Source of the DNA: a virus
Direction: 5' to 3' (one strand)
IMG/VR virus record: IMGVR_UViG_3300037069_001133
Span: 1 to 27,562 of that record
Length of the DNA stretch: 27,562 bases
A program made the position numbers and the translations under genes. The number at the start of each line of letters is the position of its first letter. Position 1 is the first letter of the stretch. Below are positions 12,427-27,525 of the stretch, piece after piece. A model generated the notes under the pieces. That model searched no databases. It saw only the letters and a list, made by a program, of their open reading frames with translations, and had not been told where the DNA came from.

Positions 12427-13844
12427 ACGAGTGTCAACTGGATGTCGCCGGCAGCGATGACCGGAGCCTGGTTAATTTGCATCTGGATGCTGTCGAGCGC
12501 CGGCAAGATGCCGTCGATGGTCTCGCTCGCCACCGTCTGCGGCTGGTTGATGGTGTAGGTCCCGGTGCCCCCAGTCCCGGTGCCGAGCGCCGTGATGATG
12601 GTGCCGGCTTGGATGCCGCTGCCAAGCAGCACCTGCCCAACGGCCAGGGTGCCACTCGTGACGGCCGTCACCGTCATCGTTGTGGTGGCGATTGACGCCG
12701 TCACAACGGCGGCTGGCGAGCCGGTCCATCCCAGCTTGATGGAAATGATCGACGCCCAGGTGCCGAGCGACGCGATGCCGGCGTAGAACCGGCTGGCGTA
12801 GATCGCCGATCCGATCCGCGCGCGAGGTCCGCCGTCTGCGCCGGAGAAGGCATTGATGATGACGCCTTGAATCAACGACAGGGCGTTGGATGGCACCGCC
12901 GTCGTGTTGGCAATCTTCACCAGGAACAGGATTGGCACCGAGGTCGGAATTTCAAAGGTGACGTTGTAGGTCGGCACCGGAACGGAGTAACCAGTATTCC
13001 CGTCAGAAACTACCACCGTCGTGTTGCCGGTGTAGCCGCAGCCGGGCGGCTTCTTTTGCCAGATCGCCGTGCCGATGGCGCCTGAGTTGCCGCCTGCCAC
13101 CGCGACGTAGAGGCTGTTGGCGGCAATCGAGACGCCGCCGATGGTGACGGGCGATGCGGTCGGATTTTCTGTGGCGTAGGCATCCACCACCCCTGGCACC
13201 TGCAAGACATTCGCCAGGATCGCCGACAGGGTGCTGCTGGAATTGATCGCCACCGACTCACTGCGGCGTTGCTCGAAATTGACGCGGTTCTCAACGTCGC
13301 TGCCGAGCACACCATCAGACGGGTTGGTGATGGCATCCCAGCCAGGAATGGCCTGGTAGATTTGGCTCAGCGAGGTCGCCGGGCAAGAGATCGGGCCGCT
13401 GTTGTCGCAAGCAAACTGCAACGATATGGTGCCGCTGGTCGGGATCGTGCCGCCGGAAATGCAGGAGTAGATGTTGCCATCAGTCGCCTGGGCAAGCGCG
13501 CCGGTCGGGATGACGGCGCCTGCGAGGCCCACGCAATTGCAGGTCACGATGGTCGCGCTTGGCAGGATGCGCTCGATGAAGTAGATGCGGCCGATTGCAT
13601 CCTGCATCCGTCCAGTTGCGTAGGACGGGTCCACACCATTGGCGAGCGCGAGGAACTGCGAATAGCAATCGGCGATGATCGCCGCGAAGCTGGTGGCCAG
13701 CTGGCCCTGCGGCGTGTCGAGCGACAAATTGAGGTTGCCGCCGAAGGCTGCCGTCATATCGGCCTGGACGCCCGCCAGGATGTCACTCTCCAGCGGCGCG
13801 ATGAAACCGTTGGGTCCAAAGGTGGGGGTGGGCACTGACGTCAT
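12423..13844 (-). CDS. baseplate J-like wedge protein carrying the virion module
   Basis: The product has 473 residues. Baseplate J features are [63 protein letters not shown] (the helix-rich entry), [19 protein letters not shown], and later [17 protein letters not shown]. The protein forms the wedge arms that carry fibres and trigger contraction. Residues 384-445 are one copy of the Gly/Thr-rich module. It sits between [13 protein letters not shown] and [14 protein letters not shown], which together form the usual C-terminal domain (a conserved strand ending in IQLTL). The module therefore interrupts the last domain rather than being appended. Start ATG 13844 has AGGAAG upstream and lies nine bases from the gp25 stop. 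Confidence 0.87.
12510..12695 (-). repeat. virion module copy 5 (baseplate J)
   Basis: This copy encodes residues 384-445: [43 protein letters not shown] and PQTVASETI. It is the copy closest to the apparent consensus. Bases 12567-12593 are identical to 23556-23582 in the terminator, 11 kb away. Confidence 0.85.
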
Positions 13845-13853
13845 GATTGCTTC

Positions 13854-14258
13854 CTAGAGTACGTCATTGCCATCAAGCAGGGAGACGCCGAACACGAAAT
13901 TGTTGGGCTGCACCTGGACGATGATGGTTTTGCCGGAAGTTGCCTTGACTTGCACTTGGCCGTGCAGATCGCGCTTGGTGAGGCTGGAGAGATAGCAAAT
14001 CGCCGAAACCGTCTCCGGCACCCGCAACGCCGCCTTGGTGAACTCGGCCTTCATCAGCTGCGACGGAGGCCGCTTGCCGAGGATGTCGGAGAAGTAAGGC
14101 ACGCCGAGCGACTTGGCATACCACAACTCGCCGAGGAACAGCCGGAGCGCACTCGCCACATCCTGGGCGATGGAATAGGGATCGGACGCCAGCGCGATAT
14201 TGCCGCTCGTGTCCAAGCACAAATCCCAGCTGTCGCGGTCCAGGAGGAGCGTGTTCAC
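13854..14258 (-). CDS. baseplate wedge protein, gp25/W-like
   Basis: The product has 134 residues, starting GTG 14258. LDRDSWDLCLDTSGNIALASD is the conserved entry strand-turn of gp25-like lysozyme-related wedge proteins. YSIAQDVASALRLFLGELWYAKSLGVPYF is their central helix, with the characteristic G-E-L/W-Y and G-[IV]-P-Y. A C-terminal beta region (HGQVQVKATSGKTIIVQVQ) follows. In P2 and T4 this protein binds the J-like protein and forms the inner wedge bundle, which fits the next gene being J-like. A 110-residue frame on the same strand and a longer one starting at 14307 are shadows. Confidence 0.86.
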   Translation of the reverse strand: MNTLLLDRDSWDLCLDTSGNIALASDPYSIAQDVASALRLFLGELWYAKSLGVPYFSDILGKRPPSQLMKAEFTKAALRVPETVSAICYLSSLTKRDLHGQVQVKATSGKTIIVQVQPNNFVFGVSLLDGNDVL

Positions 14259-14362
14259 CGGACCTCCAAAATCGTGGCCAGGGAGACGGCAAGAGCCTCG
14301 GCCGCACCCTCCCTACAGGGACGGTTGCGGAACCCAGCCGGCGCCAAGATTTCCCAGGTCAT
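14255..14362 (-). CDS. 35-codon mini-gene between spike and wedge genes
   Basis: The product has 35 residues: MTWEILAPAGFRNRP, then a helix-prone REGAAEALAVSLATI ending LEVR. It fills exactly the 108-base gap between the spike stop (14367) and the gp25-like gene, and its TGA overlaps the next start as GTGA. Purine-rich AGGGGA precedes the ATG, though too close, with another AGGGA further upstream. The tight fit and coupling argue it is translated, if only to couple expression of the wedge gene. I do not recognise the protein. The alternative is an untranslated spacer. Confidence 0.5.
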   Translation of the reverse strand: MTWEILAPAGFRNRPCREGAAEALAVSLATILEVR

Positions 14363-14366
14363 TCCC

Positions 14367-15017
14367 CTACGTCCCTGGGGTGGGGACGGATGTGCCGGCG
14401 GCTGCGGTCCCGGTCCCGTGCTGATGCTGGGTCATGTTGACGCTGCTTGCGCCGGTCTTGGCGGTGATTTCACCCTTGGTGCCGAGGTTGCCGCTTGCAT
14501 CGAGCGTCACATTGGGAGCCGACAGCACGATGGCGGTCGGGGAGTGGACGGTGATGCCGGTGTTGTCGAAGATGACGTATTGCGTCGGCGTGCCGTTGAG
14601 GATGCCGCCGATGTAGATGCCATCCGCCATGTTGAAGCGCCGCCGCGAGCCGGGGTTGGACTGCTTCTTGGTGGATTTCACTGAGGAGATATCGTGGCTG
14701 GCGAACACCACAATGCCGATGTCGCCCACCGCCGGGTCGATGATGACGGCGTTGGTGCCGCCTTGAAGCCGGGCGTAGGGCAGATGATAGACGGTGTTGT
14801 GGACGGTCGGCTGGCCGTTGCCGTCCAGCTGATTTACGAGCGGCAGCACATCGACGTAGCCGACTGGGTTCAGGCCTGCCGGCGAACTGACGGCCTGGAC
14901 CATCGCCGGCATCGCCGTGGACACCCGGCTGAGGATGCTGCGAACCAGCGCGGCATGGTTGGCGTAATCGGAGCCGGCCGACTGGGCAGTGACGTTGTTG
15001 GTGGCACTTCCGCTCAC
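14367..15017 (-). CDS. baseplate central spike, GpV/Gp138-like
   Basis: The product has 216 residues from GTG 15017 (GTGA overlap); GTG 15029 would add four. Residues 15-110 form an N-terminal OB-fold-like domain (ALVRSILSRVSTAMPAMVQAV, YVDVLPLVNQLDGNG, VYHLPYARLQGG, DIGIVVFASHDI), as in Gp138/GpV assembly proteins. A beta-helix stalk follows (GIYIGGILNG, GITVHSPTAIVLSAPNVTLDA, GEITAKTG). The C-terminus has MTQHQH followed by a Gly/Thr/Ala tail, the apex motif in which paired histidines bind a metal ion at the tip of the membrane-piercing needle. Hisses of the motif are residues 198 and 200 from the chosen start. The role is the central puncturing device of the contractile tail. Confidence 0.88.
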   Translation of the reverse strand: MSGSATNNVTAQSAGSDYANHAALVRSILSRVSTAMPAMVQAVSSPAGLNPVGYVDVLPLVNQLDGNGQPTVHNTVYHLPYARLQGGTNAVIIDPAVGDIGIVVFASHDISSVKSTKKQSNPGSRRRFNMADGIYIGGILNGTPTQYVIFDNTGITVHSPTAIVLSAPNVTLDASGNLGTKGEITAKTGASSVNMTQHQHGTGTAAAGTSVPTPGT

Positions 15018-16327
15018 GAGGAGAACCACTTGGCTGAGCCGATGTGGACAAATCGCTTGCTGGTGCCGGCCGGAACAGAGAATGCGACGTTGTTGGACAG
15101 CGCATCAATCGACTGGCTGGACGGCGGGTAGACCAACAGGGCGTTGGCTCCATTGTTCCACACCCCGACCTCGGTGCCGGCCGAGACGGAGGGCAGCAAG
15201 ACGCCTGTGCCGGAGGCCGTTGTGCCGATCTGGTTCCACTGCGTCGCCAGGACAGTGGCGGTGCCCTGCGTCGTGCCGGCTCCCGAAATTCCGACAGCGC
15301 CCGTGCCTTGGACATAGGAGCCGGAGACTACCCCTGTGGCAGTGACGGCGCCTGTGGCGGTGACGGTTCCGGCCGCGACCGTGCCTGTGGTCGTGAAGCC
15401 GCCGCTGGCATGCAGCGTGGAGAACAGGTCCCAAAAGCCCAGCACGCCGCCATTGTAGAGGAAGTCCAGCTGGCTGGAGCCGGAGTCATAACGCATCGTC
15501 CACTTGCCGTCAGTGGAGAAGGCAATGTGTTGGCCGTCAGCCATCCAAACGGTGTTGGCGCCGGAGCCTTCTGTCGCAAGGCGCGCGTCGATGAAGGCCT
15601 GGGTGAACGCCACATTCCCCATAAAGTAGCGTTTGACTTTGGTATGCGTATTGCCGTAGACGCCAAAGATATTCCCCAGGAGGAGATCGCTGCCGCCGTT
15701 GTTGGCAAGTGACAGGTCAATTGATGCAACGCCGGTCGAATCATCATCATCGACGTTGTTGCCGGCCCAATCAAGCTCCAGTGTGACGCCGGAGCCGCGC
15801 TGTGAACTTGGCAGGTCCACCTTGTCGTTCATCTCAACAACAAGGCCCTCCAGAGCCACGCCGACTGCGCCGCCTGTGACAGCAGTGCGCACAGCCTGGG
15901 CATAGGACGCAACCTGCGTCGCGTTGCCGGCTGCCGTCTTGTTGGCGTAGGCCGATGTGGTGCTGAAGCTGGCGTGGAGGTTCCAAGCTCCACCGGCCGG
16001 CGCCCCGCTCGCGCTTGACTGGACCTGCACATTGAAGACGTTGTTGGAGGCGCCGCCGGTGTGATTGATGAGGTAGAAGCTGTTGAGGATCGCCGCATCA
16101 GTGCCGGTGCTGCCGATGCGGGACAGCTGCGCGACCTGGTTGTTGACGCCCTCCGGCCAGAAGGTGGCGCGGCGGAAATCGCTATCTCCGATGTAAAGCT
16201 CACCAGTCAGATTGATGGTGAACTGCGAACTAAGCGTCACCGGCCCGGTGAACGTCCCGCCGGTGATCGGCATGAACGTGGCCAGAACATCAGCGGCCGA
16301 GGCGATGCGGTTTTTGGCGATTGTCAT
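15014..16327 (-). CDS. tail fibre/spike protein set within the baseplate cluster
   Basis: The product has 437 residues. The N-terminal 1-35 (NRIASAADVLATFMPITGGTFTGPVTL) carries a single copy of the fibre motif GGTxTGPxxL found six times in the 562-residue fibre. Residues 40-300 are a beta-rich domain (YIGDSDFRRATFWPEG, GGAVGVALEGLVVEMND, KVDLPSSQRGSG). Residues 305-360 are a Gly/Thr-Val repeat typical of a triple-stranded stalk. The C-terminal domain (ATQWNQIGTTASGTGVLLP, VGVWNNGANALLVYPPS, FSVPAGTSKRFVHIG) resembles a common phage fibre tip. It is likely an adhesin. Its position is odd: it splits the plug and spike genes, with ATGA and GTGA overlaps on its two sides, so it is fully integrated into the coupled operon. 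Confidence 0.75.
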   Translation of the reverse strand: MTIAKNRIASAADVLATFMPITGGTFTGPVTLSSQFTINLTGELYIGDSDFRRATFWPEGVNNQVAQLSRIGSTGTDAAILNSFYLINHTGGASNNVFNVQVQSSASGAPAGGAWNLHASFSTTSAYANKTAAGNATQVASYAQAVRTAVTGGAVGVALEGLVVEMNDKVDLPSSQRGSGVTLELDWAGNNVDDDDSTGVASIDLSLANNGGSDLLLGNIFGVYGNTHTKVKRYFMGNVAFTQAFIDARLATEGSGANTVWMADGQHIAFSTDGKWTMRYDSGSSQLDFLYNGGVLGFWDLFSTLHASGGFTTTGTVAAGTVTATGAVTATGVVSGSYVQGTGAVGISGAGTTQGTATVLATQWNQIGTTASGTGVLLPSVSAGTEVGVWNNGANALLVYPPSSQSIDALSNNVAFSVPAGTSKRFVHIGSAKWFSS

Positions 16328-16701
16328 GCCCAGACTGTCCCATCATCCCAGAGAAACTCATCCCATGAGCCGTAGCGTGCGCTCGGCACGAATGGGAGTG
16401 CTGCGACCTCGGCCTTGGTGAAGTAGGCCAAGAAGAAGCGGTCACCAATTCCTGGGTACGTCGGATCAAGCGAGCCCTGGGTGTCGATGAATGCCAGGTC
16501 GCCGTCAAAACCGAGATAGCCGGACCGTACGATCACATTGTTATTCCAGCAGGCGACGCCGCCGATAACTAAGATCAAGTCAACATATAAATCGACATAA
16601 ATCGTGCCAGATTTTTGATATACATTGATCTGGCAAATCTGGTTGTTGAGCGTGATGCTGACGGTCTGCGACGGCACCGTCTGCAGCGGGATAATTTGCA
16701 T
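16324..16701 (-). CDS. baseplate plug protein (Pam3 gp18-like)
   Basis: The product has 125 residues. The N-terminus MQIIPLQTVPSQTVSITL, then CQINVYQKSGTIYVDLYV, VIGGVACWNNN, YLGFDGDLAFIDTQG and LAYFTKAEV, match the small plug proteins described from cyanophage Pam3-type baseplates. These sit in the tube lumen above the spike, and the family has a conserved Cys-Gln and a D-Thr-Gln-Gly motif. The start overlaps the hub-associated gene by one base (TGATG). The C-terminal 25 residues (ARYGSWDEFLWDDGTVWA) extend past the usual family end and are aromatic/acidic. The coding stretch around 16560-16640 is noticeably AT-rich compared with its neighbours. Confidence 0.82.
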   Translation of the reverse strand: MQIIPLQTVPSQTVSITLNNQICQINVYQKSGTIYVDLYVDLILVIGGVACWNNNVIVRSGYLGFDGDLAFIDTQGSLDPTYPGIGDRFFLAYFTKAEVAALPFVPSARYGSWDEFLWDDGTVWA

Positions 16702-17387
16702 CAGGTCAGCCCTCCGGCCAGGCTGGCGCCTTGCGCCGGGCCAGCATCCTGCGATGCCACCTGACCGCCGTTCACTGGATCGGCGCTATCGGAATTTTGG
16801 GTGTCAGAGAACGCCGCCGTGCCCACCAGCCGGACCTCCTGGCACCACACATCGACGGTCAATAGTGTGGCGCCGTTTTTGGCGGTGCGGCGGTAATCGA
16901 CGTGCGTGACGTTCATGTTGCCATAGCTGACTTCGCGCGTGACGACGGAGTAGAGGCCGAGCGAGTCAGATGCCTGCGCACAGTCCAGCAGAAAACTCTG
17001 CCGCGCCGCATCGCCTGAGCCGCTGCCGAGCGCGCCGAGCGCGCCTAGAACTCCGAAATTGGTGAAGCCGCCGAAGGTGAATGTGACGCGAACATCGAGC
17101 GGTTCCTTCACCTTGTTGTAGGAGGCGAAAGCGCCCTGCTCTTGCGGGAAATTGCTGATGCGACGCTCATTGCGGTAATCAACTGCCATCACACTGTCGC
17201 CGGTGATGTCTGGGCCGAGGCCGTCTTGCGAGAACAGCCCCCACTGCACATCCGTCAGGGCCTGCACCACTTGGATGGCGTCGGAGCCGAGCGCCGCGAT
17301 GCCGTCAACAATCGGCGCCGCGCCGGGCGCAGTCAGGACCGGCGGCACACCCGGAGCAACGGGCACATTGGGGTATTGCGCGCTCAC
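16701..17387 (-). CDS. baseplate hub-associated structural protein
   Basis: The product has 228 residues, starting GTG 17387 in a GTGA overlap. The N-terminus is Pro/Ala/Val-rich (1-30). A central region (VQWGLFSQDGLGPDITGDSVM, RNERRISNFPQEQGAFASYNK, VKEPLDVRVTFTFGG) looks like Dit/gp48-type proteins that initiate or cap the tube at the baseplate. SYGNMNVTHVDYRR and LTVDVWCQEVRLVG follow. The C-terminal 35 residues are Ala/Gly/Ser/Asp-rich and probably flexible. The sequence phrase ISNFPQEQGAFASYNKV recurs in proteins next to hub genes of this phage class, but I cannot name the family. Position between hub and plug genes supports a baseplate-core role. Confidence 0.68.
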   Translation of the reverse strand: MSAQYPNVPVAPGVPPVLTAPGAAPIVDGIAALGSDAIQVVQALTDVQWGLFSQDGLGPDITGDSVMAVDYRNERRISNFPQEQGAFASYNKVKEPLDVRVTFTFGGFTNFGVLGALGALGSGSGDAARQSFLLDCAQASDSLGLYSVVTREVSYGNMNVTHVDYRRTAKNGATLLTVDVWCQEVRLVGTAAFSDTQNSDSADPVNGGQVASQDAGPAQGASLAGGLT

Positions 17388-18268
17388 TTGATCACCAGAC
17401 CCTGGTTGGTGGTTTCGAGCCGGGTGAACCAGTCGCCGCCAATCGTCTGCGACTCAAGCTCATGGCTCATGGAGTAAATAGACCACTTGCCGCAGGCCGG
17501 GGTCAAGCTGCTCTGAATTTGCACCAGCGAGCCGAATTTGATGCCTGGATTGAACAGGGTGGTGACCACGACGCCCGATGAATTGAATGTGGGGTATCCC
17601 ACCATGCCAGTGGTCGGCGAAATTAGCGGGATCGCGCCGGAGCGGTATCCGGTCTTGGGCCATATCGCCAACGTGTTGCGGTCGATTGTCCAATAGATAT
17701 CCGCCGCTCGCGCGCACTCCTCCACCTGCTGGCGCGGGCTGCCAGGGAAGTAGGGGTTGGCGATTTTGACATCAACGCCGTTGTTCTCCAGCGTCATGCC
17801 CATCTGCTTCGCCAGCTGCCCCATGATTGTGGCGACATCGCCTGATCCTTGGATGCTGGTCGGAGGCGCCGAGGCGACGGCTTGGAAAAGACCAGAGTAG
17901 GCCGACACTGCGAACATGGTGTCTGGCATGCCCTTGAAATCTGCCCAACCTTGGTAGATGGTTCCGTTAAAAACATTCGCCATGCCGTTGACGTCATCGC
18001 CGGCCGAGATCGACACTGTGTTGTTGGGCTGGCTGCCGGGCACGCCGCGTCCCAGCGTCGATAGCTGGTTCATCATTGACATCGTGAGGCCGTAGACACG
18101 CAGCTGCAATTCCGCCATCACTTCGCCGGACATGTGGATGTTGGCAGTGGCGCGCAGCCCGCCGATGGTCACCGAGTTGGTGCCGCTTTCGGTGAACTTG
18201 GCGCCCTGCACCAGTGTAAAGGTGACGTCAATCTTTCGCTCAACGAAGCTGGTGCTGGCGCCCGACAT
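17384..18268 (-). CDS. baseplate hub protein (gp44/gpD-like)
   Basis: The product has 294 residues. It follows the tape measure gene with a one-base TGATG overlap (ATG 18268; GTG 18271 is also possible). The sequence alternates beta segments expected of tail-tube-like hub domains: RKIDVTFTLVQGAKF, NSVTIGGLRATANIHMSG, AELQLRVYGLT, NTVSISAGDD, then a DNVFNGTIYQGWADF-like strand pair, FAVSAYSGLFQAV, and VDVKIANPYFPGSPRQQVEECARAA. It ends with SIYSMSHELESQTIGGDWFTRL, a stretch characteristic of hub proteins that join the tube to the central spike. The protein carries no enzymatic domain. The lytic function appears to have been placed in the tape measure instead. Confidence 0.75.
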   Translation of the reverse strand: MSGASTSFVERKIDVTFTLVQGAKFTESGTNSVTIGGLRATANIHMSGEVMAELQLRVYGLTMSMMNQLSTLGRGVPGSQPNNTVSISAGDDVNGMANVFNGTIYQGWADFKGMPDTMFAVSAYSGLFQAVASAPPTSIQGSGDVATIMGQLAKQMGMTLENNGVDVKIANPYFPGSPRQQVEECARAADIYWTIDRNTLAIWPKTGYRSGAIPLISPTTGMVGYPTFNSSGVVVTTLFNPGIKFGSLVQIQSSLTPACGKWSIYSMSHELESQTIGGDWFTRLETTNQGLVIK

Positions 18269-20406
18269 CACGCGAGCCCATAGCTGGATTGCGGGACGAT
18301 GGCCTGCCGCTTCATGGCGCCGCTGATATCGGCGGCGATGCCCTTAGCGTCGGTGGCCTTGGTGTGGATGGAAATCTGCCCTACGTGGACCTCGCTCGAA
18401 TGGTCGTTGGTCGTCGTGTTGGTATTCGTTGTGCTGGCTGGACGCGCGGCATTCTGTTGACTGCGCAGTCGCGCCAAAGTGTCTTGCAGATTGGTGATGC
18501 CAGACGGCGGCGCGACATCTGGCGGGCTGGATGCTCCGGCCGGCTTCGCGGTGTTGGGAGAATTGTCTTGCGACACTGCCACCAACGGCTTGACCGCCTG
18601 ATGAAGAACAGCCAGGGTCGGTGGTTTGGATGCGTCTTTCGGCTTGGCCTCAGCCGCCCTTTGTGCACGGATCGCCCGCATCACATCATCAGTTGTGGCG
18701 CCGGTGTGCTGGCCGTAATACGACTTTCCGGTGGTCGGATCGGGCAGCGAGGCCCAGATGGTGGCGAGCGCCCGCATGTACTCGTTGTCGTTTTTGGCGT
18801 TGCCGGTGCGCTCGCGGATCAAGGTGCTGGCGAGCCGGTCCTGCATCTTCTCATCGAACTTGGCATTGGGGTCCAGGCCCTGCTTCTTGATGAGATCGCG
18901 CAACGTGGTCTGGGTGATCTGGTAGCGGCCGAGCGCCGAGGAGTGTTCCTTGTTGTCGGGGTTGGCGAGCATCTTGGACTGAAGCTCATCAATCTGCCCG
19001 AGCGTCATGCCGGTGAGGTTCTGGTCGCCGTTGGTGTATTTGCCGTAGCCCAACGTCTCGTTGTAGCCGCGCCCCTTGTCGGTGCCCTCTGTCTTGCCCA
19101 CGAGGTCCAGCACCGACTTGTCGCCTTCGCCGAAGAAGTTGAGGACGCCGTTGCGCCAGCGGCCCATCATGTTTGTGAACGTCTCGGCAGGGTGCAGCGG
19201 CCGGTGATGTTCGTCCATCGGCCGCTCTTGCGGCGCCGGGCCATTGTCCGGCTTGTAGCCCTTGCGGACGCCATCGGGGGTGGCGTTTGGATCGGTGTCG
19301 CCCTTGAGGGCTAAAGGCAGCGCGAGCGGGAACAGGCGCGACAGCCAAGCAAACAGGCCTCCGGTGCCCGCTGCCGAGCCAGCCGCCTTCAGTCCAGTGA
19401 GGGCTGCCGTCACCTTACCGATGCTGGCGACCAAACCAAGCACCTTGGTGACGGCCCAGATTGCAAACAGTTCCTCGCTGACTGTTTTCCAGCCGCCCAT
19501 CGCCTTGACGATGTCGTTGACCTCAACAACAAAATTCTTGATCGCAGTTGCTGCGTCGCCCACCCATTTGGCGACGTTGATGGTAATCCATTCGCGGTTG
19601 TCCTGAAGCCATTGGCTCCAGTGCTTCAGCAACTCGATGATGCCAGGCGTCAATTCGTTGACGATGGTGCGCCCGACTGAGGTGAAGGCTTGCCGGAGGT
19701 CGGCAAAATTCTTCTGCAGCCTCTGCGCGTTCTCTGCGTCTTTCTCGCTGACGACACCAAGCTTGCGCTGCTCCTCCAGCAGCTTGGCTACGCCGGCCCG
19801 CCCCTGCTCCAGCAGGTTGATGGTGCCCTGGTCCATGCCGAGCGCGCGGCCGAACGCATTGGCGCGCTGCGGGTCCATGTGGGAGAACTTGTCGGCGAGG
19901 TCCAGGTAGATATCGCCGATGTCGCGCATGTGCCCTTTGTTGTCAGATATGCTGACATTGAGCGCGCGGAAATAGGGGATGACGGACGATTGGCCGGTCA
20001 GGACGAAATTCTGGAACTCACCAGTGAGCGACTGCATCGAGCCGTCGATGCCAGCGGCCGATCCGCCCACCCGCTCGGCTGCGCCTTCCCAGGCCGACAG
20101 GCCCTCGGTGGAAATGCCGAGGTTGTGGGCGAGACGGCCCACGGCCGCATCCGAGGTCGTGATGGATTGCACAAAGTCTTTGATGCCGCGCGCGCCCATG
20201 AACACGGCGAACATGCCGATGGCTTCATTGCGCAGCTTGGTGAAGAATTGCGCCGCCTGCTTGCCGCTCGCTTCGATCTGCTTGGCGGCAGCGTTGGCAT
20301 CCTCTTTGGTCTTTTTGAGGTCGGCGGATGCCTTCTTCTGGCCTTGAGTGAACTTGCTGTCATCAAGGCCCAGGGTAACCAGCAGGGAGTCAATGATTGT
20401 TGGCAT
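18268..20406 (-). CDS. tape measure protein with embedded lysozyme-like domain
   Basis: The product has 712 residues. The N-terminal 1-110 (LGLDDSKFTQGQKKASADLKK-like, then an Ala/Lys coiled coil to about 60) is typical of tape measure proteins of this phage class. Residues 60-300 are helical. A hydrophobic span lies at about 315-370 (LFAIWAVTKVLGLVASIG and FAWLSRLFPLALPLAL). Residues 434-570 look like a lysozyme-superfamily muramidase: VGKTEGTDKGRGYNETLGYG with candidate catalytic Glu440, MTLGQIDELQ, SSALGRYQITQTTLRDLI, MQDRLASTLIRER. This domain would open the peptidoglycan during DNA injection. The C-terminal 590-712 is Pro/Ala/Thr-rich and then beta-like. ATG 20406 overlaps the chaperone -1 frame by 17 bases. 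Confidence 0.85.
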   Translation of the reverse strand: MPTIIDSLLVTLGLDDSKFTQGQKKASADLKKTKEDANAAAKQIEASGKQAAQFFTKLRNEAIGMFAVFMGARGIKDFVQSITTSDAAVGRLAHNLGISTEGLSAWEGAAERVGGSAAGIDGSMQSLTGEFQNFVLTGQSSVIPYFRALNVSISDNKGHMRDIGDIYLDLADKFSHMDPQRANAFGRALGMDQGTINLLEQGRAGVAKLLEEQRKLGVVSEKDAENAQRLQKNFADLRQAFTSVGRTIVNELTPGIIELLKHWSQWLQDNREWITINVAKWVGDAATAIKNFVVEVNDIVKAMGGWKTVSEELFAIWAVTKVLGLVASIGKVTAALTGLKAAGSAAGTGGLFAWLSRLFPLALPLALKGDTDPNATPDGVRKGYKPDNGPAPQERPMDEHHRPLHPAETFTNMMGRWRNGVLNFFGEGDKSVLDLVGKTEGTDKGRGYNETLGYGKYTNGDQNLTGMTLGQIDELQSKMLANPDNKEHSSALGRYQITQTTLRDLIKKQGLDPNAKFDEKMQDRLASTLIRERTGNAKNDNEYMRALATIWASLPDPTTGKSYYGQHTGATTDDVMRAIRAQRAAEAKPKDASKPPTLAVLHQAVKPLVAVSQDNSPNTAKPAGASSPPDVAPPSGITNLQDTLARLRSQQNAARPASTTNTNTTTNDHSSEVHVGQISIHTKATDAKGIAADISGAMKRQAIVPQSSYGLA

Positions 20407-20620
20407 TTGCTATCCGCTGGTTTTCGGCATCGACCATCAAGATTTCTAGCAGGTCATACAAATCTTCGCTGCCGTAAACTGAGTCCAGTTCGTGCAGTGT
20501 CGCAATCCGGCTGGAGACCACTATGCCGATGGCGCGGGAGACGTTCGCGTACTCGGCAACAGGCCCGGTTGGGCCGACGCTTGGGCCGAAATCTAGGGCG
20601 CGCCGGCTGCCGAAAAACTG
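20390..20620 (-). CDS. tail assembly chaperone extension, -1 frame (T-like)
   Basis: I translated this stretch by hand. It is open in the -1 frame relative to the chaperone gene and ends with TGA at 20392-20390, 17 bases inside the tape measure gene. The C-terminal part reads SSRIATLHELDSVYGSEDLYD, then LLEILMVDAENQRIANANNH. The phrase YDLLEILMVDAENQR is the kind of helix found at the end of second tail-chaperone frames and has clear protein character. There is no ATG start. The only candidate is GTG 20521 (43 residues, no evident ribosome site), so expression by -1 frameshifting from the first frame is more likely. A five-T run at 20613-20617 is the best slip point seen. The left boundary given is the slip region, not a start codon. 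Confidence 0.68.
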   Translation of the reverse strand, partial: QFFGSRRALDFGPSVGPTGPVAEYANVSRAIGIVVSSRIATLHELDSVYGSEDLYDLLEILMVDAENQRIANANNH

Positions 20621-20997: not shown

Positions 20998-21001
20998 AGG
21001 A

Positions 21002-21433
21002 TCAGATCGGGACCGGGTTGATGTCTGCCCATGTGATGATGAAGTTACGTGCCTGCAGCACCTTGCGGGTGCCTGGGATCGACACGATGCTCGTCAACAC
21101 GCCTTGCGTCAGGACGTAGGCGCGGTTGACCGAAGGCAGCGTGATGACGGCGTTGGCGAGGAATACCTCACGTGCCGCCTTCTGCGCCGCCAGCCAATCC
21201 TCGAACAGCAGCGAGGAGGCTGAATCAGACATGATGGAAATCGTCTGGCGCGTGAGGAACGGCACGAAGCCGGCGCTCATTTTGCCATCGACACCGATCA
21301 CAACCTCGGCCGGCTCGCTCGCATCCGTGTCGAATGCGGCGTCAGCCGAGAAACCTTGCAGCTGCTGTGGGGTCGGGAAAAGCCCAGCAACTGCCAACAT
21401 GTATACGCTGTTGGCTGCGGTAATCGTTCCCAT
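21002..21433 (-). CDS. tail tube protein
   Basis: The product has 143 residues. It immediately follows the sheath gene and precedes the chaperone, the standard place for the tube protein of a contractile tail. The N-terminus is TITAANSVYMLAVAGLFPTP, followed by QLQGFSADAAFDTDASEPAEVVIGVDGK in segments, GFVPFLTRQTISIM, and a C-terminal KVLQARNFIITWADI. This is a short beta-sandwich-like sequence typical of small tube proteins. ATG 21433 has GAGG nine bases upstream. An in-frame GTG at 21451 would add six residues inside the sheath gene and is less likely. No catalytic motifs are present. The role is firm by context; the precise Pfam family is not. Confidence 0.8.
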   Translation of the reverse strand: MGTITAANSVYMLAVAGLFPTPQQLQGFSADAAFDTDASEPAEVVIGVDGKMSAGFVPFLTRQTISIMSDSASSLLFEDWLAAQKAAREVFLANAVITLPSVNRAYVLTQGVLTSIVSIPGTRKVLQARNFIITWADINPVPI

Positions 21434-21434
21434 G

Positions 21435-23165
21435 TTACTGGACCTCGACACTGGCTAGGTTGATGCGCTGAACTGATCCGCCATCGGCGTACCAGAAAGT
21501 GCAGGGAGGCGAGCCACGTGATGCACGCACCTGCGGGGCGGCATCCTTGACTTGGAGATACCAGCCGACGCTGGTGATGGTCGGCGCAATGGTCAGCCCG
21601 GCTGCCGTGTTGACCTCCACCGCCTGCAGATTGCTGAGCGTGACGCCCGGCTGCAGCGCGCCGAAGTTGGCGGCCTGGTTGATCGGGTCAATGAGGGCGG
21701 CGCGGATCATGGCGTAGCCCGATGGGTTGTAGGGGATGGACTTGACCTGCGTCAGCAGCGACATCAGCGCCACCTGGAACTGGTTGGTCAGCCAAATCTG
21801 GTTGATGTAGCTGTCGAGCCAGGCGAACGCGCCGGTCACCGAGCCGGGATAGAGGAAGGTGAAGCTGTCGTTGGCGGTGCTGAAGTTGCCGACGTAGCTG
21901 TAGCCGTTGGCCTCCAGGTTGGAGGCGATCACCTGGCTGGTCACATCCGGCGCGAGGCCGCTCTGGCCCTTGAAGGCAAAGGTGACGCGGCCCTGCGTCT
22001 CGGTGAAGTCCACCGAGGCAATCGCGCCGCAGAGGAACGCCGCCGTTTGCGCCCCGTTGACCGGCGCGTAGACCAGTGCGGTGCCGTCGCTGTTGGCCTG
22101 GTCCAAAAGGTAGCCCATCGTCGTGGTCTGCCCGGTCAACGTCGCGTTGATGTCGTTGTCCCAGCAGGCATAGACAAAACGCTTGTTCTGGGTGTTGGCC
22201 CATGCAGCAAACGCCATCTTGATGGTGTTGCCCGAGCCGCCATCGGGATCGAAGGCGGTCATGAAGCTCGCCCAGTCCTGCGTGATCGCCTTGATGGCAT
22301 TCAGTGCGCCGGCCGGGGTGGCTGCCACGGCGCCAATCGACTGGACCGCGCCAACAGCCGCCGTCAGGCCGAGCGCCGCCGCGATGGTGCCGGAGACGAA
22401 GCTGACGGTGGAGGCCGCCCCGACAGTGCCGGAGGTCACCACGAACGCGCCGGAGACGCTGTCGTAGGTCACGACGGGCAGCGCTGACGTCATCGACTCA
22501 CTGGCGATGGTCTGCGTTGGCGTGACGGTGTAGGTGCCAATGCCGCCGGTGCCGGTGAGGATGGCGCTGACGTAGGTGTTGACCGTCACCCCGGCGCCGA
22601 CGATCTGATCACCGACTGAAATGGTGCCGGAGGTCATCGCCGAAACCGTCATCGTGGTGCCGGCGATGGCGGCGGTGAAAGCCGAGCGTTGCGGCCCGGT
22701 GGCGCTGAGCGCGGTGCTTATCAGCTGGGCGGCGGCGCTGAAGCTGGATGCGCTGGTGAGGGTGATGCTGCTGCTGGTCTTCAGCGTGCCGTCGATGGTC
22801 ACCGCGATGATGCCTGACGGGATGGCCTGGATGCCTGCGACGCCGCCGGCCGAGACGTTGGAGCCGCGCAAGTAGGCGCTCACCGAGGTCTGGTTGTACT
22901 GGGCGAACAGCAGCGAGCCGGGCTTGACGTTGGAATTGTCGAAGCCGAGGAAGTAGTTGCTGGCCAGCGCCGCCTCGGCGGCTGTGGCGCCGAAGTAAGC
23001 CGCCACTGCGGCCTGCGTCGGGAACGCCTGCACGGTGCCGAGCGGCACGCGCGTATTGGCAGTCAGGAACAGACCGTTCAGGTCAAGCGCCGAACCGCCC
23101 GCGCTGAGCACGCTGGGGCTGACATTGACGATCTGCGAAGCCGGAATGCTGGTCGTGCCGGACAT
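21435..23165 (-). CDS. tail sheath protein (DUF3383-like) carrying the virion module
   Basis: The product has 576 residues. The N-terminus (SIPASQIVNVSPSVL, LDLNGLFLT, RVPLGTVQAFPTQAAVAAYFG, ASNYFLGFDNSN, GSLLFAQYN) is diagnostic of DUF3383 contractile sheath proteins. Later segments NKRFVYACWDND, LGYLLDQ-like and the C-terminal NLQAVEVNTAAGL and GWYLQVKD complete the family. The sheath polymer surrounds the tube and contracts to drive it through the cell wall. One copy of the Gly/Thr-rich module occupies about residues 166-228, within the outer, variable part of the sequence, and so is likely displayed on the outside of the tail in very many copies. The family call comes from remembered motifs. 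Confidence 0.9.
   Translation of the reverse strand: MSGTTSIPASQIVNVSPSVLSAGGSALDLNGLFLTANTRVPLGTVQAFPTQAAVAAYFGATAAEAALASNYFLGFDNSNVKPGSLLFAQYNQTSVSAYLRGSNVSAGGVAGIQAIPSGIIAVTIDGTLKTSSSITLTSASSFSAAAQLISTALSATGPQRSAFTAAIAGTTMTVSAMTSGTISVGDQIVGAGVTVNTYVSAILTGTGGIGTYTVTPTQTIASESMTSALPVVTYDSVSGAFVVTSGTVGAASTVSFVSGTIAAALGLTAAVGAVQSIGAVAATPAGALNAIKAITQDWASFMTAFDPDGGSGNTIKMAFAAWANTQNKRFVYACWDNDINATLTGQTTTMGYLLDQANSDGTALVYAPVNGAQTAAFLCGAIASVDFTETQGRVTFAFKGQSGLAPDVTSQVIASNLEANGYSYVGNFSTANDSFTFLYPGSVTGAFAWLDSYINQIWLTNQFQVALMSLLTQVKSIPYNPSGYAMIRAALIDPINQAANFGALQPGVTLSNLQAVEVNTAAGLTIAPTITSVGWYLQVKDAAPQVRASRGSPPCTFWYADGGSVQRINLASVEVQ
22482..22670 (-). repeat. virion module copy 4 (tail sheath)
   Basis: This copy encodes about residues 166-228 of the sheath: GTTMTVSAMTSGTISVG, IVGAGVTVNTYV, LTGTGGIGTY and PTQTIASESM. 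Bases 22529-22550 are identical to 26877-26898 in the cement protein. Confidence 0.85.
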
Positions 23166-23168
23166 CAA

Positions 23169-23897
23169 CTATGCTCCTGGGGGATAGGTTGCGTCAATCT
23201 CCACCGGAGTGACGATCAGTTTGTCGGCGAAATCCTGCTGGACAGTGATCACCGGGTTGGCCTGGATGACGACATCCATGGTCCAGCGATACTCGAACTG
23301 CTGCTCAGCATTCTGGAACGCGGCCTGACGCGGCTCGCTGGCGAACAGCGGCTGGGCATCAATGGTGGCGGCCATGCTCTGGCAGGCGTAGGTGTCGCGG
23401 ATCAGCGTGCTGATGATCTGCGCATTGTCGGCGCTGGACGGGCCGTGGATGTCCAGCTGGAACGTGATCTGCGTCGGCTGGAGCACATTGTACTCGCCGC
23501 CGAGGAGTTGTGCCGTGGGGGCGCTCTGCGAGGGCAGGACGGCGTAGGTGCCAACGCCCCCAGTCCCGGTGCCGAGCGCCGTCACGACTGTGCCGGTGAC
23601 CACGCCTGGGCCGGAAATCGGCTGCCCGACGCCCATGGTGCCGGAGGAGATCGAATTGACAGTTAGGACCGTGCCGGAAATGCCGCCGAGGAACAACGTA
23701 TCTTCGTAGCTCGCCACATTGGTGGACAGCCGCTCGCGATGCGTTGGCGTCATCACGACAAAGTCAGTCCCGCTCGGCTCCGGCACGCGGCTTTGCTCGG
23801 CGCGGATCACCGCGACGCCGGCCGGCAAGATCGCCGTGAGGAAGGTGCGGAGTGCCACCAGCGTCTGGTACTCTGTGCTGCTGATGTATGCCATCAT
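23169..23897 (-). CDS. tail terminator, LIC_12616-like, carrying the virion module
   Basis: The product has 242 residues. The core is split: residues 1-71 (YQTLVALRTFLTAILPAGV, AEQSRVPEPSGTDFVVMTP, RERLSTNVASYED) and 132-242 (QITFQLDIHGPSSADNAQI, LIRDTYACQSM, PLFASEPRQAAF, NAEQQFEYRWTMDVVIQAN, FADKL). Together these match LIC_12616-type phage neck terminator proteins, which cap the tail tube and sheath at the head end. Between them sits one copy of the Gly/Thr-rich module (72-131). Removing it leaves about 180 residues, the usual family length, so it is an insertion in a surface loop. ATG 23897 makes an ATGA overlap with the previous stop. Confidence 0.82.
   Translation of the reverse strand: MMAYISSTEYQTLVALRTFLTAILPAGVAVIRAEQSRVPEPSGTDFVVMTPTHRERLSTNVASYEDTLFLGGISGTVLTVNSISSGTMGVGQPISGPGVVTGTVVTALGTGTGGVGTYAVLPSQSAPTAQLLGGEYNVLQPTQITFQLDIHGPSSADNAQIISTLIRDTYACQSMAATIDAQPLFASEPRQAAFQNAEQQFEYRWTMDVVIQANPVITVQQDFADKLIVTPVEIDATYPPGA
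23174..23178 (-). promoter_or_regulatory. ribosome binding site of the sheath gene
   Basis: AGGAG lies eight bases before ATG 23165. It overlaps the last codons of the terminator gene and supports ATG 23165 over the adjacent TTG at 23168. A strong site is expected for a highly expressed sheath. Confidence 0.6.
23505..23684 (-). repeat. virion module copy 3 (tail terminator)
   Basis: This copy encodes residues 72-131 of the terminator: GTVLTVNSISSGTMGVG, ISGPGVVTGTVV, GTGTGGVGTY and PSQSAPTAQ. Bases 23556-23582 are identical to 12567-12593 in the baseplate J copy. Confidence 0.85.
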
Positions 23898-24271
23898 GCA
23901 CCGTTCTGCAGCGTCACGGCCAGCTTGGTCCAGCCCGGCCGCACCCAGGACTCAAGCACCTGGACCACCAGCCAAACCTGCCCGTCAAAGGTCAGGAGGT
24001 CGCCGCCCTTGCCCTCAACCCGCACGGTGCCATTCCAGGCGCCGTTGAGGTAGATCGCGCGCCGCTCGCCCTGCTGGTCCAAGCCGTCCAGCATCTGCAG
24101 ATCGGTAAAGGTCAGCGACTGCATCTGCACCCAGCACTGCACCGACTGAGCATAGCTCGGCGAGCGCGAGCCGTCCGGGTTGATGACCGAACCAAGGGAC
24201 GATTGCAGCGTGGCCAGCGTCATCGGGTTGATGGCCGCGATGTGGCCGCGCACGATCTGATGGAGGTTCAC
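23894..24271 (-). CDS. putative head-tail joining (stopper) protein
   Basis: The product has 125 residues from GTG 24271, which overlaps the previous TGA as GTGA and has GGAGG four bases upstream. A TTG at 24283 is a weaker alternative. The N-terminus (NLHQIVRGHIAAINP) leads into a small beta-rich domain with VQCWVQMQSLTFTDLQMLDGL, RRAIYLNGAWNGTVR, GGDLLTFDGQVWLVVQVLESW and KLAVTLQNG. This layout, a small beta-barrel protein between an HK97-gp10-like gene and a terminator gene, is the position of head-closure/stopper proteins such as SPP1 gp16 types. Function is inferred from position and fold impression. I do not recognise a named family with certainty. Confidence 0.68.
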   Translation of the reverse strand: MNLHQIVRGHIAAINPMTLATLQSSLGSVINPDGSRSPSYAQSVQCWVQMQSLTFTDLQMLDGLDQQGERRAIYLNGAWNGTVRVEGKGGDLLTFDGQVWLVVQVLESWVRPGWTKLAVTLQNGA

Positions 24272-24702
24272 TTGACCTCCCAATCGACGCTGTTCAGCAT
24301 GTGGCCGGTGTCGATGAGCGGCTTGGTGCTGCCCTTCGCCGCGACCGTGGCCGGCGCGAGCGGCGGCGCCACGAGGTCCACGATGGACTGCTGGATTTCA
24401 CCCTTGATGCCCTCGCCCATGAGGGACAACGCCTTGTTGGCGTCGTAGTCGTGGGCCTTCAGCACGGCGCCGAGTTTTGGCCCCCACTTCGGCGAGTTGG
24501 TCTTGATGGCGGTGCGAAAGAACGGACGCGGCGGGATGCCGCGCGAGGGAGCGCCGAACTCCTGCACCGTCGCCACCAACGGTGTGGACGTGCCATCGGG
24601 ATAGGTCGAGCCGGCCAGGAAGCCGACACGGACCTCATGGCCGCTCTGCAGCTTGGCGGCAATCGAAGTGAGGGCAGCGGTGAGCCGGCTGCCGCCGCTC
24701 AT
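24268..24702 (-). CDS. HK97-gp10-like neck/tail completion protein
   Basis: The product has 144 residues. A stretch VRVGFLAGSTYPDGTSTPLVA is followed by QEFGAPSRGIPPRPFFRTAI, the signature of HK97 gp10-like and virion morphogenesis proteins that form or complete the neck. The C-terminal part (LMGEGIKGEIQQSI then LAPATVAAKG...PLIDTGHMLNSVDWEV) is the usual end of this family. The open frame extends 132 bases further upstream, but that part lies inside the DUF4054 gene and reads as Arg-rich shadow. ATG 24702 makes an ATGA overlap with the upstream stop, the coupling used throughout this operon, and matches the family length. Confidence 0.8.
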   Translation of the reverse strand: MSGGSRLTAALTSIAAKLQSGHEVRVGFLAGSTYPDGTSTPLVATVQEFGAPSRGIPPRPFFRTAIKTNSPKWGPKLGAVLKAHDYDANKALSLMGEGIKGEIQQSIVDLVAPPLAPATVAAKGSTKPLIDTGHMLNSVDWEVK

Positions 24703-25139
24703 CGCCATGGCGTGAACCCCCCGCCGGAGTAGATGGGAGGAGCGCCGTAGCGCGGCCCGGCAACGTACCGCATCGTGCGGAATGCGGCCATCGCCTGCCA
24801 CGCGGCCAGTCCATACTTGGACTGTGTGTACCATGCCGCCGTCCCTGGCACGCCCGCCAGTTCCGACGACACATTGACAGACCCTTCTCCGGCACTGGCA
24901 ATCCGGCCAACAACGGGCGATGATTCTGGCCCGTTGAGGTAGGCGATATGCGCCGTGACCATGTTGAGGATCGTGGCGCGCACCCCCATGTCGATGATGC
25001 GACTGCAGGGGGTGTTATCGACGTACAGGCACGCTTCGTTGAAAAACATCGTCGCCTGGGGCGCAGCACTCACAAGCTCAGGGTACCGCGCAGCCCAGGC
25101 GGCGTAATCAAACACAACCGTTCCGGTCGTGCCCGACAT
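24699..25139 (-). CDS. DUF4054-like head-tail connector/adaptor
   Basis: The product has 146 residues. The pattern fits DUF4054 phage proteins: an aromatic N-terminal FDYAAWAARYPEL, a helix with a central Tyr-Val (ACLYVDNTPCSRI), a helix VRATILNMVTAHIAYLNG, a Gly/Ser turn (GRIASAGEGSVNVSSEL), and a C-terminal WYTQSKYGLAAWQAMAAF. DUF4054 proteins are placed at the neck of contractile-tailed phages, as gp6-type adaptors beneath the portal. Start ATG 25139 makes a one-base overlap (TGATG) with the upstream stop. A GTG at 25142 is an equally possible start and would add one residue. Confidence 0.8.
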   Translation of the reverse strand: MSGTTGTVVFDYAAWAARYPELVSAAPQATMFFNEACLYVDNTPCSRIIDMGVRATILNMVTAHIAYLNGPESSPVVGRIASAGEGSVNVSSELAGVPGTAAWYTQSKYGLAAWQAMAAFRTMRYVAGPRYGAPPIYSGGGFTPWR

Positions 25140-25531
25140 CACTCAGCCGGCTTGATGCCGGGAGCGGTCTGCGACATGGGCTCGGAAACGCCCTTGACAG
25201 CCTCCTGCTCTTTGGCCTGATCGGCCGCGCGATCCGGCGTGGACTGAACGAAGATCATGCCCTTGACGATGGGGGAATAACCTTCGTTCTGCTTCATCCA
25301 CTCCGCCATGAAATCGGCATCGACTTCGGTGAGGCCGTAGCCGCCGATCACCCTGGAGGAGTTGCGGCCGGCGAGCGTCACCGGGTCGCCAACCGGCTGG
25401 TAGACGCTGCCGATGCCGCCGGCCGGCGCGTCGGCGAGCTTCTTGCGAAGCTGCAGACGCAGACCGTTCGGGAGCTTGCAGCCGACCATCACCGTCTTGC
25501 GGCTGGACGATTTGCTGGCGGTGTCCGACAT
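25139..25531 (-). CDS. conserved small head-region protein, function unknown
   Basis: The product has 130 residues and lies between capsid and DUF4054 connector, three bases after the capsid stop. The first 15 residues are Ser/Lys-rich. A compact basic-to-mixed region follows (VMVGCKLPNGLRLQLRKKL, then GGYGLTEVDADFMAEWMKQ), and the C-terminal third is charged and probably disordered (about 95-130, Glu/Lys/Pro-rich). The segment VGCKLPNGL followed by a short beta-rich stretch is typical of small proteins found after capsid genes in this class of phage, none of which I can name functionally. It could be an auxiliary head protein or a head-tail connector. I see no enzymatic motif. Its TGA overlaps the next ATG by one base. 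Confidence 0.72.
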   Translation of the reverse strand: MSDTASKSSSRKTVMVGCKLPNGLRLQLRKKLADAPAGGIGSVYQPVGDPVTLAGRNSSRVIGGYGLTEVDADFMAEWMKQNEGYSPIVKGMIFVQSTPDRAADQAKEQEAVKGVSEPMSQTAPGIKPAE

Positions 25532-25534
25532 GGG

Positions 25535-26560
25535 CTACACCCCCACCATCGTGGCGAAGGCCACCGGCAGGAACAGCACGGCGCCCCAGGTGCCCTGCGA
25601 CTTCTTCTGCTTGAAGGCCGACAGTTCGGTCACGATGGGATGCGCGCGCATCTTCTCGGTGAACGAGCAGTAGCCCGTCTCCTGGCCGTCGATGCTCTCC
25701 GCAATCATCTGGATCGTGTTGATGCCGGCATTGGTGTACTGCGGCGCCGTCTCGATGCGGATGTTGGGGAAATTCTTCTTCAGCAGGTCGCTGACGTTCA
25801 CGTTGAAGCTGTTCGTGTTCGTCAGGTAGATCGCGACGCCCGGCGGCAGAGCAAGGACCACCGAAGTGTCCTGGTCCACGAGGCCCTGCGTCTGCGTCAC
25901 CAGCGTCTCGTAGAGCGACTGGACGTCAGCGTAGATTTCATTGGCCGTGGACAGCGGACCCCAGCCGGGGCCACCAGCCGCCTTCGTGCCCGGCGAGATC
26001 GCGGCCGGCAGCGACGGGTCGTTGAGCAGGCCGTAGTTCTCCAGGCCCTGGACGCCAAAGAAGTAGGTGAGGTTCTGGAACTTGTCCAGCACCATCGCCG
26101 AGGCGACGTTCAGCTGCTGCGCCCAGTCGATTTTCGCCAGACCGGCTTCCGCCAGCTGCTTCTCGCCCCACTGGGTGATGGTCTGGTAGTGGTACGACTG
26201 GCGCTGCGGGAACTGGACGTTGGCCGAGGTCGTGCCGTTGTTGCTCCAGTCGCCGTAGCTGCTGACTTCACCGGCACTCTCCACCATCGAGAAGATGGCG
26301 GTGCGGGTGATCCAGTCGCCCTTCTTGGTCTCACCAAGGATTTGCGCCGCCTTGTTGGGCGTCGTCAGCACCTTGATGACCTTCGGGTCCAGGTAGCTGG
26401 ACAGGAAGGCGGGGATGCCGGCATTGCTGACCGTGACCAGCTGCGGCTGCGCATCCATGGCGAGGTCGTAGTTGTGAGCTACGCCCTCCGGTAGAAAATC
26501 GGTATCGTACGCCATGACGATACCATGGGACTGCGCGACGCGCAGAAGATCAGCGTGCAT
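25535..26560 (-). CDS. major capsid protein (DUF2184-like)
   Basis: The product has 341 residues from ATG 26560 and forms the HK97-fold icosahedral shell. Recognisable stretches are LDPKVIKVLTTPNKAAQI, GDWITRTAIF, VESAGEVSSYGDWSNNG, QRQSYHYQT, WGEKQLAEAG, NLTYFFGVQGLENYGLLND, and near the C-terminus YCSFTEKMRAHPIV. These match the DUF2184 group of phage capsid proteins. An upstream in-frame TTG (26581) would add seven residues and overlap the cement gene by 16 bases. I prefer the ATG because it has an AGGGG ribosome site and no overlap. There is no scaffold or delta domain at the N-terminus. No copy of the Gly/Thr-rich module is inserted here, unlike in its partner cement protein. Confidence 0.9.
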   Translation of the reverse strand: MHADLLRVAQSHGIVMAYDTDFLPEGVAHNYDLAMDAQPQLVTVSNAGIPAFLSSYLDPKVIKVLTTPNKAAQILGETKKGDWITRTAIFSMVESAGEVSSYGDWSNNGTTSANVQFPQRQSYHYQTITQWGEKQLAEAGLAKIDWAQQLNVASAMVLDKFQNLTYFFGVQGLENYGLLNDPSLPAAISPGTKAAGGPGWGPLSTANEIYADVQSLYETLVTQTQGLVDQDTSVVLALPPGVAIYLTNTNSFNVNVSDLLKKNFPNIRIETAPQYTNAGINTIQMIAESIDGQETGYCSFTEKMRAHPIVTELSAFKQKKSQGTWGAVLFLPVAFATMVGV

Positions 26561-26565
26561 TTGTA

Positions 26566-27525
26566 TTACCCCTGCGGCCAAGTGGTGATTTTGATGACTT
26601 CACCGGCGGCGCCGATGGAGCCAACGTACCATTTCGTCTCGACACCGCCGGCTGCGGTGATCGTGGTGGAAGTGGCGGTCTGCGTGGTGCCCACGAAGTA
26701 GGTCCCGTTGCCGCCCGTGCCGGTGCCGAGGCCGGTGATGGTCGTGCCGGCCGTGACGCCCGAACCCGACAGCACATCGCCGACGCCGAGCGCGCCGGAG
26801 CCAACCGCCGTGACGGTCAGGGTGCCGTAGGTGCCGCTGATGGTCGTGCTGCCGACGGTCTGCGGGTTGGTCACCATGTAGGTGCCAATGCCGCCGGTCG
26901 TGCCGGTCAGCTGCTGGATGACGGTGGTGCCGGTGACCACGTTGGTGCCCGACAGAACCTCGCCGACAACCAGGGTGCCGGAGCTAACCGCCGTCACGGT
27001 CATGACGCCGAAGCTGGCGCTTTCCGTGCCGCTCGCGCCCTCGGTGCCGGGGACGATGGAGCCGGTGACCGACGCCGTGCTGGCGGCAATCGAGCCGGTG
27101 ACGGAAGCGGCCTGCGGCGCGCTGCCGGTGGCGCCGGTCGTCACCTTGCCGGTGCCGAACTGGGCGTAGACCTTCTGGCCGATCAGCGCGGTGTTCGCGC
27201 CATCGTTCACGGCCCAGAAGTCACCCTCATTGAACAGGGTGCACTCGTAGCCGCCGGGGATCACATTGCCCGTCTCGGCGAGGTAGGTGGTGATCAGCGC
27301 GTCACCAAGCACCCGATGCACGAAGCCGGCCGGCAGGCCGGAGCCGGCGTTGGAGGCGAACGTGCCGGTGGGGTCAACCCAGGCGAAACGCCCAACGGTC
27401 AGGCCCGCAGGCCCAACCACGAGGGCGCCGGGGCCGGCCAGCACCGAGGAACGCGGGTTGGCGGAGGCGAAATCGCCGGGCAGGCCGGGAGCCGGCTGCA
27501 GGCGAACAACAGTCTGGAACGGCAT
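26566..27525 (-). CDS. head cement/decoration protein with two inserted Gly/Thr-rich modules
   Basis: The product has 319 residues. Residues 1-130 and 294-319 resemble phage structural cement proteins of the Gp24 type: a segment around GDFASANPR, then [32 protein letters not shown], and a C-terminal ETKWYVGS...IKITTW. Such proteins bind the capsid surface and stabilise the expanded head. Between the two parts lies a low-complexity stretch (about 131-169) and two tandem copies of a module of about 60 residues (170-231 and 232-290) that also occurs in the terminator, sheath and baseplate J proteins of this window. The protein is therefore roughly twice the length expected of the core family. 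Start ATG 27525 has AGGAG nine bases upstream. It directly precedes the major capsid gene, the usual place. The family call rests on remembered motifs, not an alignment. Confidence 0.78.
26569..26573 (-). promoter_or_regulatory. ribosome binding site deciding the capsid start
   Basis: AGGGG lies eight bases before ATG 26560. It straddles the end of the cement gene (GGG TAA) and supports ATG 26560 over the in-frame TTG at 26581. Confidence 0.55.
26653..26832 (-). repeat. virion module copy 2 (cement protein)
   Basis: This copy encodes residues 232-291 and is directly in tandem with copy 1. Hallmarks are [42 protein letters not shown] and TQTATSTTI. The two copies are clearly related but diverged at the protein level, so the tandem is not a very recent duplication. 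Confidence 0.85.
26833..27018 (-). repeat. virion module copy 1 (cement protein)
   Basis: This copy encodes residues 170-231 of the cement protein. Hallmarks in order are [33 protein letters not shown] and PQTVGSTTI. Bases 26877-26898 are identical to 22529-22550 in the sheath copy. Confidence 0.85.

Follow-up and report, generated by a model that had tools for sequence, protein, structure and literature searches.

A putative portable surface domain shared by four unrelated virion proteins of a contractile-tailed phage

Results

The DNA under study, hereafter the window, was the whole of a 27,562-base stretch of virus record IMGVR_UViG_3300037069_001133, which carries a contractile-tail structural cluster on the minus strand. 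Five copies of one Gly/Thr-rich module of approximately 65 residues were found in four virion proteins encoded by this cluster, all of them on the minus strand: two copies in tandem in the capsid cement protein and one each in the neck terminator, the tail sheath and the baseplate J protein.

The baseplate J-like protein (473 amino acids, positions 12423..13844) was recognised by its matches to PF04865 (E 2.3e-10) and phrog_6 (E 1e-55), and its core was aligned with phage isolates; its module copy (12510..12710) lies in a loop near the C-terminus, with ISIKLG and SIQMQINQ on either side. The DUF3383 tail sheath (577 amino acids, 21435..23168; PF11863, E 4.7e-120; phrog_205) is a homologue of E217 gp31 by both profile and fold, and its copy, at residues 162-228 (22485..22685), is preceded by the helix LISTALSAT and followed by the strand VVTYDS. 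The adjoining neck/tail terminator (242 amino acids, 23169..23897; PF23961, E 5.4e-21; NF047498, E 2.4e-17) carries its copy at 23499..23699, after LSTNVASYED. The capsid cement protein (319 amino acids, 26566..27525) has a core that belongs to the XM1 gp53/E217 gp24 family, as judged by profile matches to PF23982 (E 5.7e-27) and PF22758 (E 6.6e-15); its first and second copies, at 26833..27036 and 26653..26844, stand in tandem.

Pairwise identity among the five copies was 46-65%, with local-alignment z-scores of 11.1-19.5 relative to 1000 composition-preserving shuffles. When a profile hidden Markov model (HMM) was built from four copies and used to score the fifth, each copy received 59-84 bits and the best of 1000 shuffles no more than 9.0 bits, which separated all five from the shuffled sequences. 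Amino-acid composition therefore cannot account for the likeness. The DNA encoding GTGTGGxGTY was matched exactly three times, compared to 0.00 expected. Once the module had been removed, the four host proteins had nothing in common when compared with each other by blastp (E ≥ 0.23). At the sequence level, these results strongly support the conclusion that the five copies form one homologous family, and they confirm an earlier sequence-only reading of this DNA, which had described five copies in four unrelated virion proteins. The motif proved looser than in that reading: the turn was LTGTGG in the sheath copy and LTGTTGG in the first cement copy, in place of GTGTGG, and the terminator copy had no clear QTxASxTI.

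Alignment of each family with phage isolates, which are without the module, showed that in each of the four proteins it is cleanly inserted in frame. Sheath homologues of sequenced phages aligned on both sides of the module and skipped the module itself, which also fell in an alignment gap relative to the E217 sheath; J-protein alignments with sequenced phages ended at the module. The proposal that the module is an insertion and not family core, made at first for the terminator and J proteins, was thus upheld by the isolate alignments and could be extended to the sheath and cement proteins. Close family members do not always carry the segment, and in the closest full-length pairs with and without it the cores were up to about 71% identical.

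Across all fetched relatives the insertion points clustered. Those in the sheath fell in a single loop (core states 147-156 of 493); J had a main loop at 374-385 and a further one at 232-239, the terminator had loops at 66-68 and at 27 of 172, and the insertions in the cement protein lay in a single region towards the C-terminus, from 133 on. The second sites in J and the terminator therefore represent independent insertions into the same protein. Four terminators (L248:7021-7953, L289:614-1555, L271:5914-6912 and L269:1396-2346) carry two modules, at two loops near residues 30 and 140, and these are independent insertions within one protein. In another terminator (L036:1623-2510, the same as L092) the short repeat TDWDGGTTDWDGGAATWDYFSY splits the module, so that one insertion lies inside another.

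The AlphaFold2 model of the module, made with 114 module sequences, was all beta and had a predicted local distance difference test (pLDDT) score of 94.3 and a predicted template modelling score of 0.81. The module is accordingly predicted to be a discrete, barrel-like domain that folds independently. When the whole sheath was modelled (pLDDT 87.5), the module appeared as added strands at 157-231, and the modelled core kept the fold of E217 gp31 (8env_A: TMt 0.76, E 1.4e-28). Both the fold of the module and the integrity of the sheath core are model predictions. Sequence searches found no solved structures for the terminator and cement families.

A Foldseek search of the PDB with the module model returned 8eci chain 1 as the top match (probability 1.00, template modelling score 0.68, E 7.3e-3), with 35% identity over 68 columns. 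This chain is named 'Decoration protein' in the PDB and is the product of gene 7 of Arthrobacter phage Bridgette, which adjoins the major capsid gene. The module and Bridgette gp7 appear to be of the same small beta domain, with a common GxGIxxGTxITA core. In contrast to the window copies, all of which are internal to other proteins and share a GTGTGGxGTY turn that is absent from gp7, gp7 is a separate, stand-alone capsid-binding protein of 126 amino acids whose C-terminus is extended by about 50 residues. Comparison of the module with gp7 by hhalign gave only a weak match (probability 54.9 over 25 columns, 48% identical), and pairwise sequence identity was 22-33%. Because this sequence-profile link is weak, common descent is likely rather than demonstrated. 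The remaining top Foldseek matches, to beta-barrel domains of F1-ATPase and eEFSec, were not significant, and none of the top matches was an immunoglobulin (Ig) beta-sandwich. Matches to MCE/YebT (E 0.008) and to antibodies, obtained by phmmer against the PDB, were weak and were discarded, since a profile search gave no support for them.

The distribution of the module was examined in 80 relatives, which were IMG/VR stretches found with the window's sheath. Homologues of each window gene were sought in these relatives after the modules had been cut out, and the modules were then counted; several of the gene names reflect a reading of synteny with annotated phages. Only six genes were ever found to carry the module. 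Module-bearing homologues were frequent for the sheath (69/80), terminator (39/73), cement (36/43) and J (35/50) genes, and rare for the tail collar/fibre gene (4/41) and the phrog_1912 head protein (2/58). No module was found in any of thirteen further genes, for which homologues were present in 43-78 of the relatives. These included the tail tube (0/78), chaperone (0/77) and tape measure (0/69), as well as the spike (0/64), hub (0/62), gp25-like wedge (0/53), neck (0/56) and major capsid (0/46) genes. The absence of the module from every internal tail component tested is therefore strongly supported within this phage group.

Copy number varied in these relatives from none to three in the sheath, J and cement proteins and from none to two in the terminator. 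A quick tree of the sheath, with 96 rows, showed at least 10 changes of module presence in the sheath, 9 in the terminator, 7 in cement and 6 in J, where the counts for the three non-sheath genes assume co-inheritance with the sheath and the sample is biased towards module-bearing sheaths. No correlation in the occurrence of the module among the four proteins was shown, there being too few independent pairs.

Modules in different proteins had a mean identity of 0.474 within a genome and 0.473 between genomes, and modules of the same protein had a mean identity of 0.558 across genomes. Since the within- and between-genome values are the same and copies in the same protein are closer, the copies are old and largely inherited with the host gene; recent intragenomic copying was tested for and none was seen. 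The ratio of nonsynonymous to synonymous polymorphism (pN/pS) was 0.18-0.26 in the modules and 0.23-0.29 in the host cores, and a test for positive selection on the module was negative. The strong support for purifying selection on the module, as strong as that on the host proteins, indicates that its amino-acid sequence matters; because pN/pS was not raised, there was no sign of a receptor arms race.

Charged residues made up 3.3% of the module compared to 11.1% of the host cores, aromatic residues 4.0% compared to 8.6%, and Trp 0.1% of the module. The conserved columns of 601 unique domains consisted of Gly, Thr, Val, Ile, one Tyr and one Gln; a search of these domains for conserved W, D, E, K, R or N, of the kind that glycan binding would lead one to expect, found none.

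To look beyond this phage group, about 85,000 bacterial and archaeal genomes were scanned with a DNA pattern of the conserved turn that took no account of the host protein, and 118 stretches were found. Among the 125 module open reading frames that this search yielded, 45 belonged to the four families in prophages (cement 17, terminator 13, sheath 9 and J 6). The others encoded tail fibres, connectors, one capsid protein and secreted bacterial proteins with type IX secretion system (T9SS) sorting, FG-GAP, LamG, PilY1 or cellulase domains, including a GH5 cellulase match. The host phyla of module carriers were diverse. Cultured hosts with module-bearing prophage genes included Paraburkholderia elongata 5N, which had the module in all four families, Rhodovarius crocodyli CCP-6 and Rhizobium freirei PRF 81. 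A tblastn search of INPHARED phage records with the module returned nothing at E 10, a blank that says nothing about absence, since the low-complexity filter probably masks the Gly/Thr-rich query.

On viral contigs the commonest other hosts of the module were the neighbouring connector genes phrog_578 (head closure Hc3), which often had two copies, and phrog_12985/SU10 adaptor. In about 60 such contigs (L006-L085, for example L049:2335-4263 and L017:1628-2608) the Hc3 and SU10-type adaptor genes adjoin and both bear the module, as two tandem modules in Hc3 and one in the adaptor. Structure searches also found the module in a predicted HK97-type major capsid protein. The collagen-repeat proteins of the giant virus Indivirus ILV1 (BFVD A0A1V0SCQ2 and A0A1V0SDM6) matched the module fold, the best match being 51% identical over 70 columns. 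Proteins with a signal peptide, encoded just upstream of the terminator/sheath region, bear the module in three further stretches (L133:8518-9165, L124:8880-9788 and L143:1528-2142); the L133 and L124 modules have two added cysteines, as would suit an oxidising compartment.

Three other repeat-bearing genes were noted in the window. Downstream of the lysis genes, on the minus strand, positions 1260-1799 encode a protein with collagen-like Gly-X-Y repeats. A fibre-like protein at 5754-7652 has an apparent LamG-type N-terminus followed by many imperfect ..DAxxPxEwLxx.. repeats, and a tail fibre at 9106-10794 has tandem GGTLTGALxLxADPxxALGAATKQYVDA repeats.

Discussion

The module is probably a portable beta domain of about 65 residues that has been inserted repeatedly into permissive loops of outward-facing virion proteins, where it would serve as a generic surface accessory. 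The data show or strongly support that the copies are homologous and inserted in frame, that the module is optional and restricted to a subset of virion genes, and that it is under purifying selection. In the homologous phage E217 (PMC10329688) the tube is enclosed by the sheath, gp24 stands out from the surface of the capsid and the baseplate nut is made of J proteins; by homology, the module would project from the particle at the head, neck, sheath and baseplate. The set of genes that carry it is in agreement with loops that face outwards and speaks against a role inside the particle. As has been proposed, though not proven, for phage Ig-like domains (PMC9022992), such an accessory layer would most likely provide weak, many-copy contacts (adhesion or retention) or spacing, and not contact with one specific receptor. 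The sequence-only reading had proposed that head, neck, sheath and baseplate all display the same module. That these parts share it was confirmed, and the evidence for surface display is indirect, coming from its presence in 69 of the 80 sheaths and its absence from the tube and tape measure.

Several points weigh against this interpretation. The count for the sheath is inflated, as the relatives were found with the window's own module-bearing sheath. The DUF2612 wedge, perhaps an exposed baseplate protein, had the module in none of 43 homologues, so exposure alone cannot explain the choice of genes. Nor is full exposure obvious for the terminator or the phrog_1912 head protein. Exposure is argued from homology and gene distribution, and adhesion from analogy, and the Bridgette decoration protein gave a modest match in both the Foldseek and the profile comparison (probability 55% in the latter).

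The main rival to a surface accessory, which we regard as possible but unlikely, is that the inserted barrels act as structural cement, contacting neighbouring subunits and stabilising the head, sheath and baseplate. Of the solved structures, that of a capsid decoration protein comes closest, and the capsid cement proteins of Bridgette are dimers that bridge capsomers (PMC13033339); purifying selection without elevated pN/pS and the tandem copies in cement and sheath would also be in agreement with such a role. However, copy number ranges from none to three among the relatives and presence has changed repeatedly, so the module is not required for assembly. It also occurs in unrelated assemblies and in secreted bacterial proteins, without a common partner surface.

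It is more doubtful still that the copies are adhesins that all bind one host glycan or capsule, the ligand suggested in the sequence-only reading. Simultaneous display on many proteins, the analogy to Hoc and Ig-like domains (PMC9022992) and the module-bearing secreted bacterial proteins, which include the GH5 cellulase match, T9SS-sorted and LamG proteins, would favour a shared ligand. Against it, the module is poor in charged and aromatic residues and has no conserved Trp or charged position, so that in composition it is unlike a typical sugar-binding site, and amino-acid change is not accelerated. Moreover, because the host phyla are diverse and same-genome copies are no more alike than copies from different genomes, no common specificity is visible. 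With neither conserved charge or Trp nor raised pN/pS, and with the module also in secreted bacterial proteins, the suggestion of a single glycan or capsule ligand is not supported.

A selfish coding insertion, in which mobile DNA is tolerated in loops like the Rickettsia palindromic elements, would explain why the same DNA-encoded unit occurs in frame in the loops of many unrelated proteins and is often gained and lost, but it is highly improbable, as it is already contradicted by the equal within- and between-genome identities and the closer likeness of copies in the same protein, and the purifying selection equals that of the core and the insertions are restricted to one or two loops in each of a few genes.

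As a surface accessory, the module is best compared with the Ig-like domains of phages (Big, I-set and FN3), which are optional and common to several virion classes (Fraser et al. 2006, reviewed in PMC9022992). These are found in fibres, baseplate, tail tube, capsid and Hoc, and they are apparently dispensable and mostly of unknown function (PMC9022992). The parallel drawn earlier holds in that the module is also an optional domain shared by unrelated virion proteins, and the sequence family does differ from Ig. Unlike those domains, the module lies in-frame inside the sheath, terminator and cement proteins and, in this group, is always absent from the tail tube. The module was not covered by any Pfam or NCBIfam model, including the Ig-superfamily profiles (Big, I-set and FN3); a weak Big_11 match in the terminator (E 0.036) was at residues 211-241, outside the module.

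The host cores in the window belong to the families of E217, Pa193 and XM1 (gp31 sheath, gp44 J and gp24 cement), but the module has not been reported in the proteins of those phages. The profiles PHROG 21413 and 38233 do contain it (at about 400-465 and 555-625, respectively) and hit the four window proteins as well as most others that bear the module; however, they represent whole proteins of unknown function or tail fibre, and not a domain definition. No description of the module was found in the literature searched. Portable virion accessory domains are known as a kind; as far as tested, both this family and the range of proteins that carry it are new.

We lean towards the broader view that the module defines an undescribed virion-surface family, present in contractile-tailed phages, decorated-connector phages, prophages, secreted bacterial proteins and a giant virus, which coats particles from capsid to baseplate and whose copies per protein are tuned by individual lineages as a portable decoration independent of Ig. 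With a domain definition at hand, annotators would no longer have sheaths or connectors labelled as tail fibre by profiles of whole proteins such as phrog_38233. Most known portable virion domains are Ig-like folds, whose role has been an open question since 2006. In the present phage a domain unrelated to them, without a Pfam or NCBIfam family, is put to the same use in the cement, the sheath, the neck and the baseplate of a single particle. Natural relatives have none to three copies per protein, and the cultured lysogens, which show this pattern too, make the purpose of surface accessory domains testable. If this view is true, the module would represent a second, Ig-independent system of portable virion decoration.

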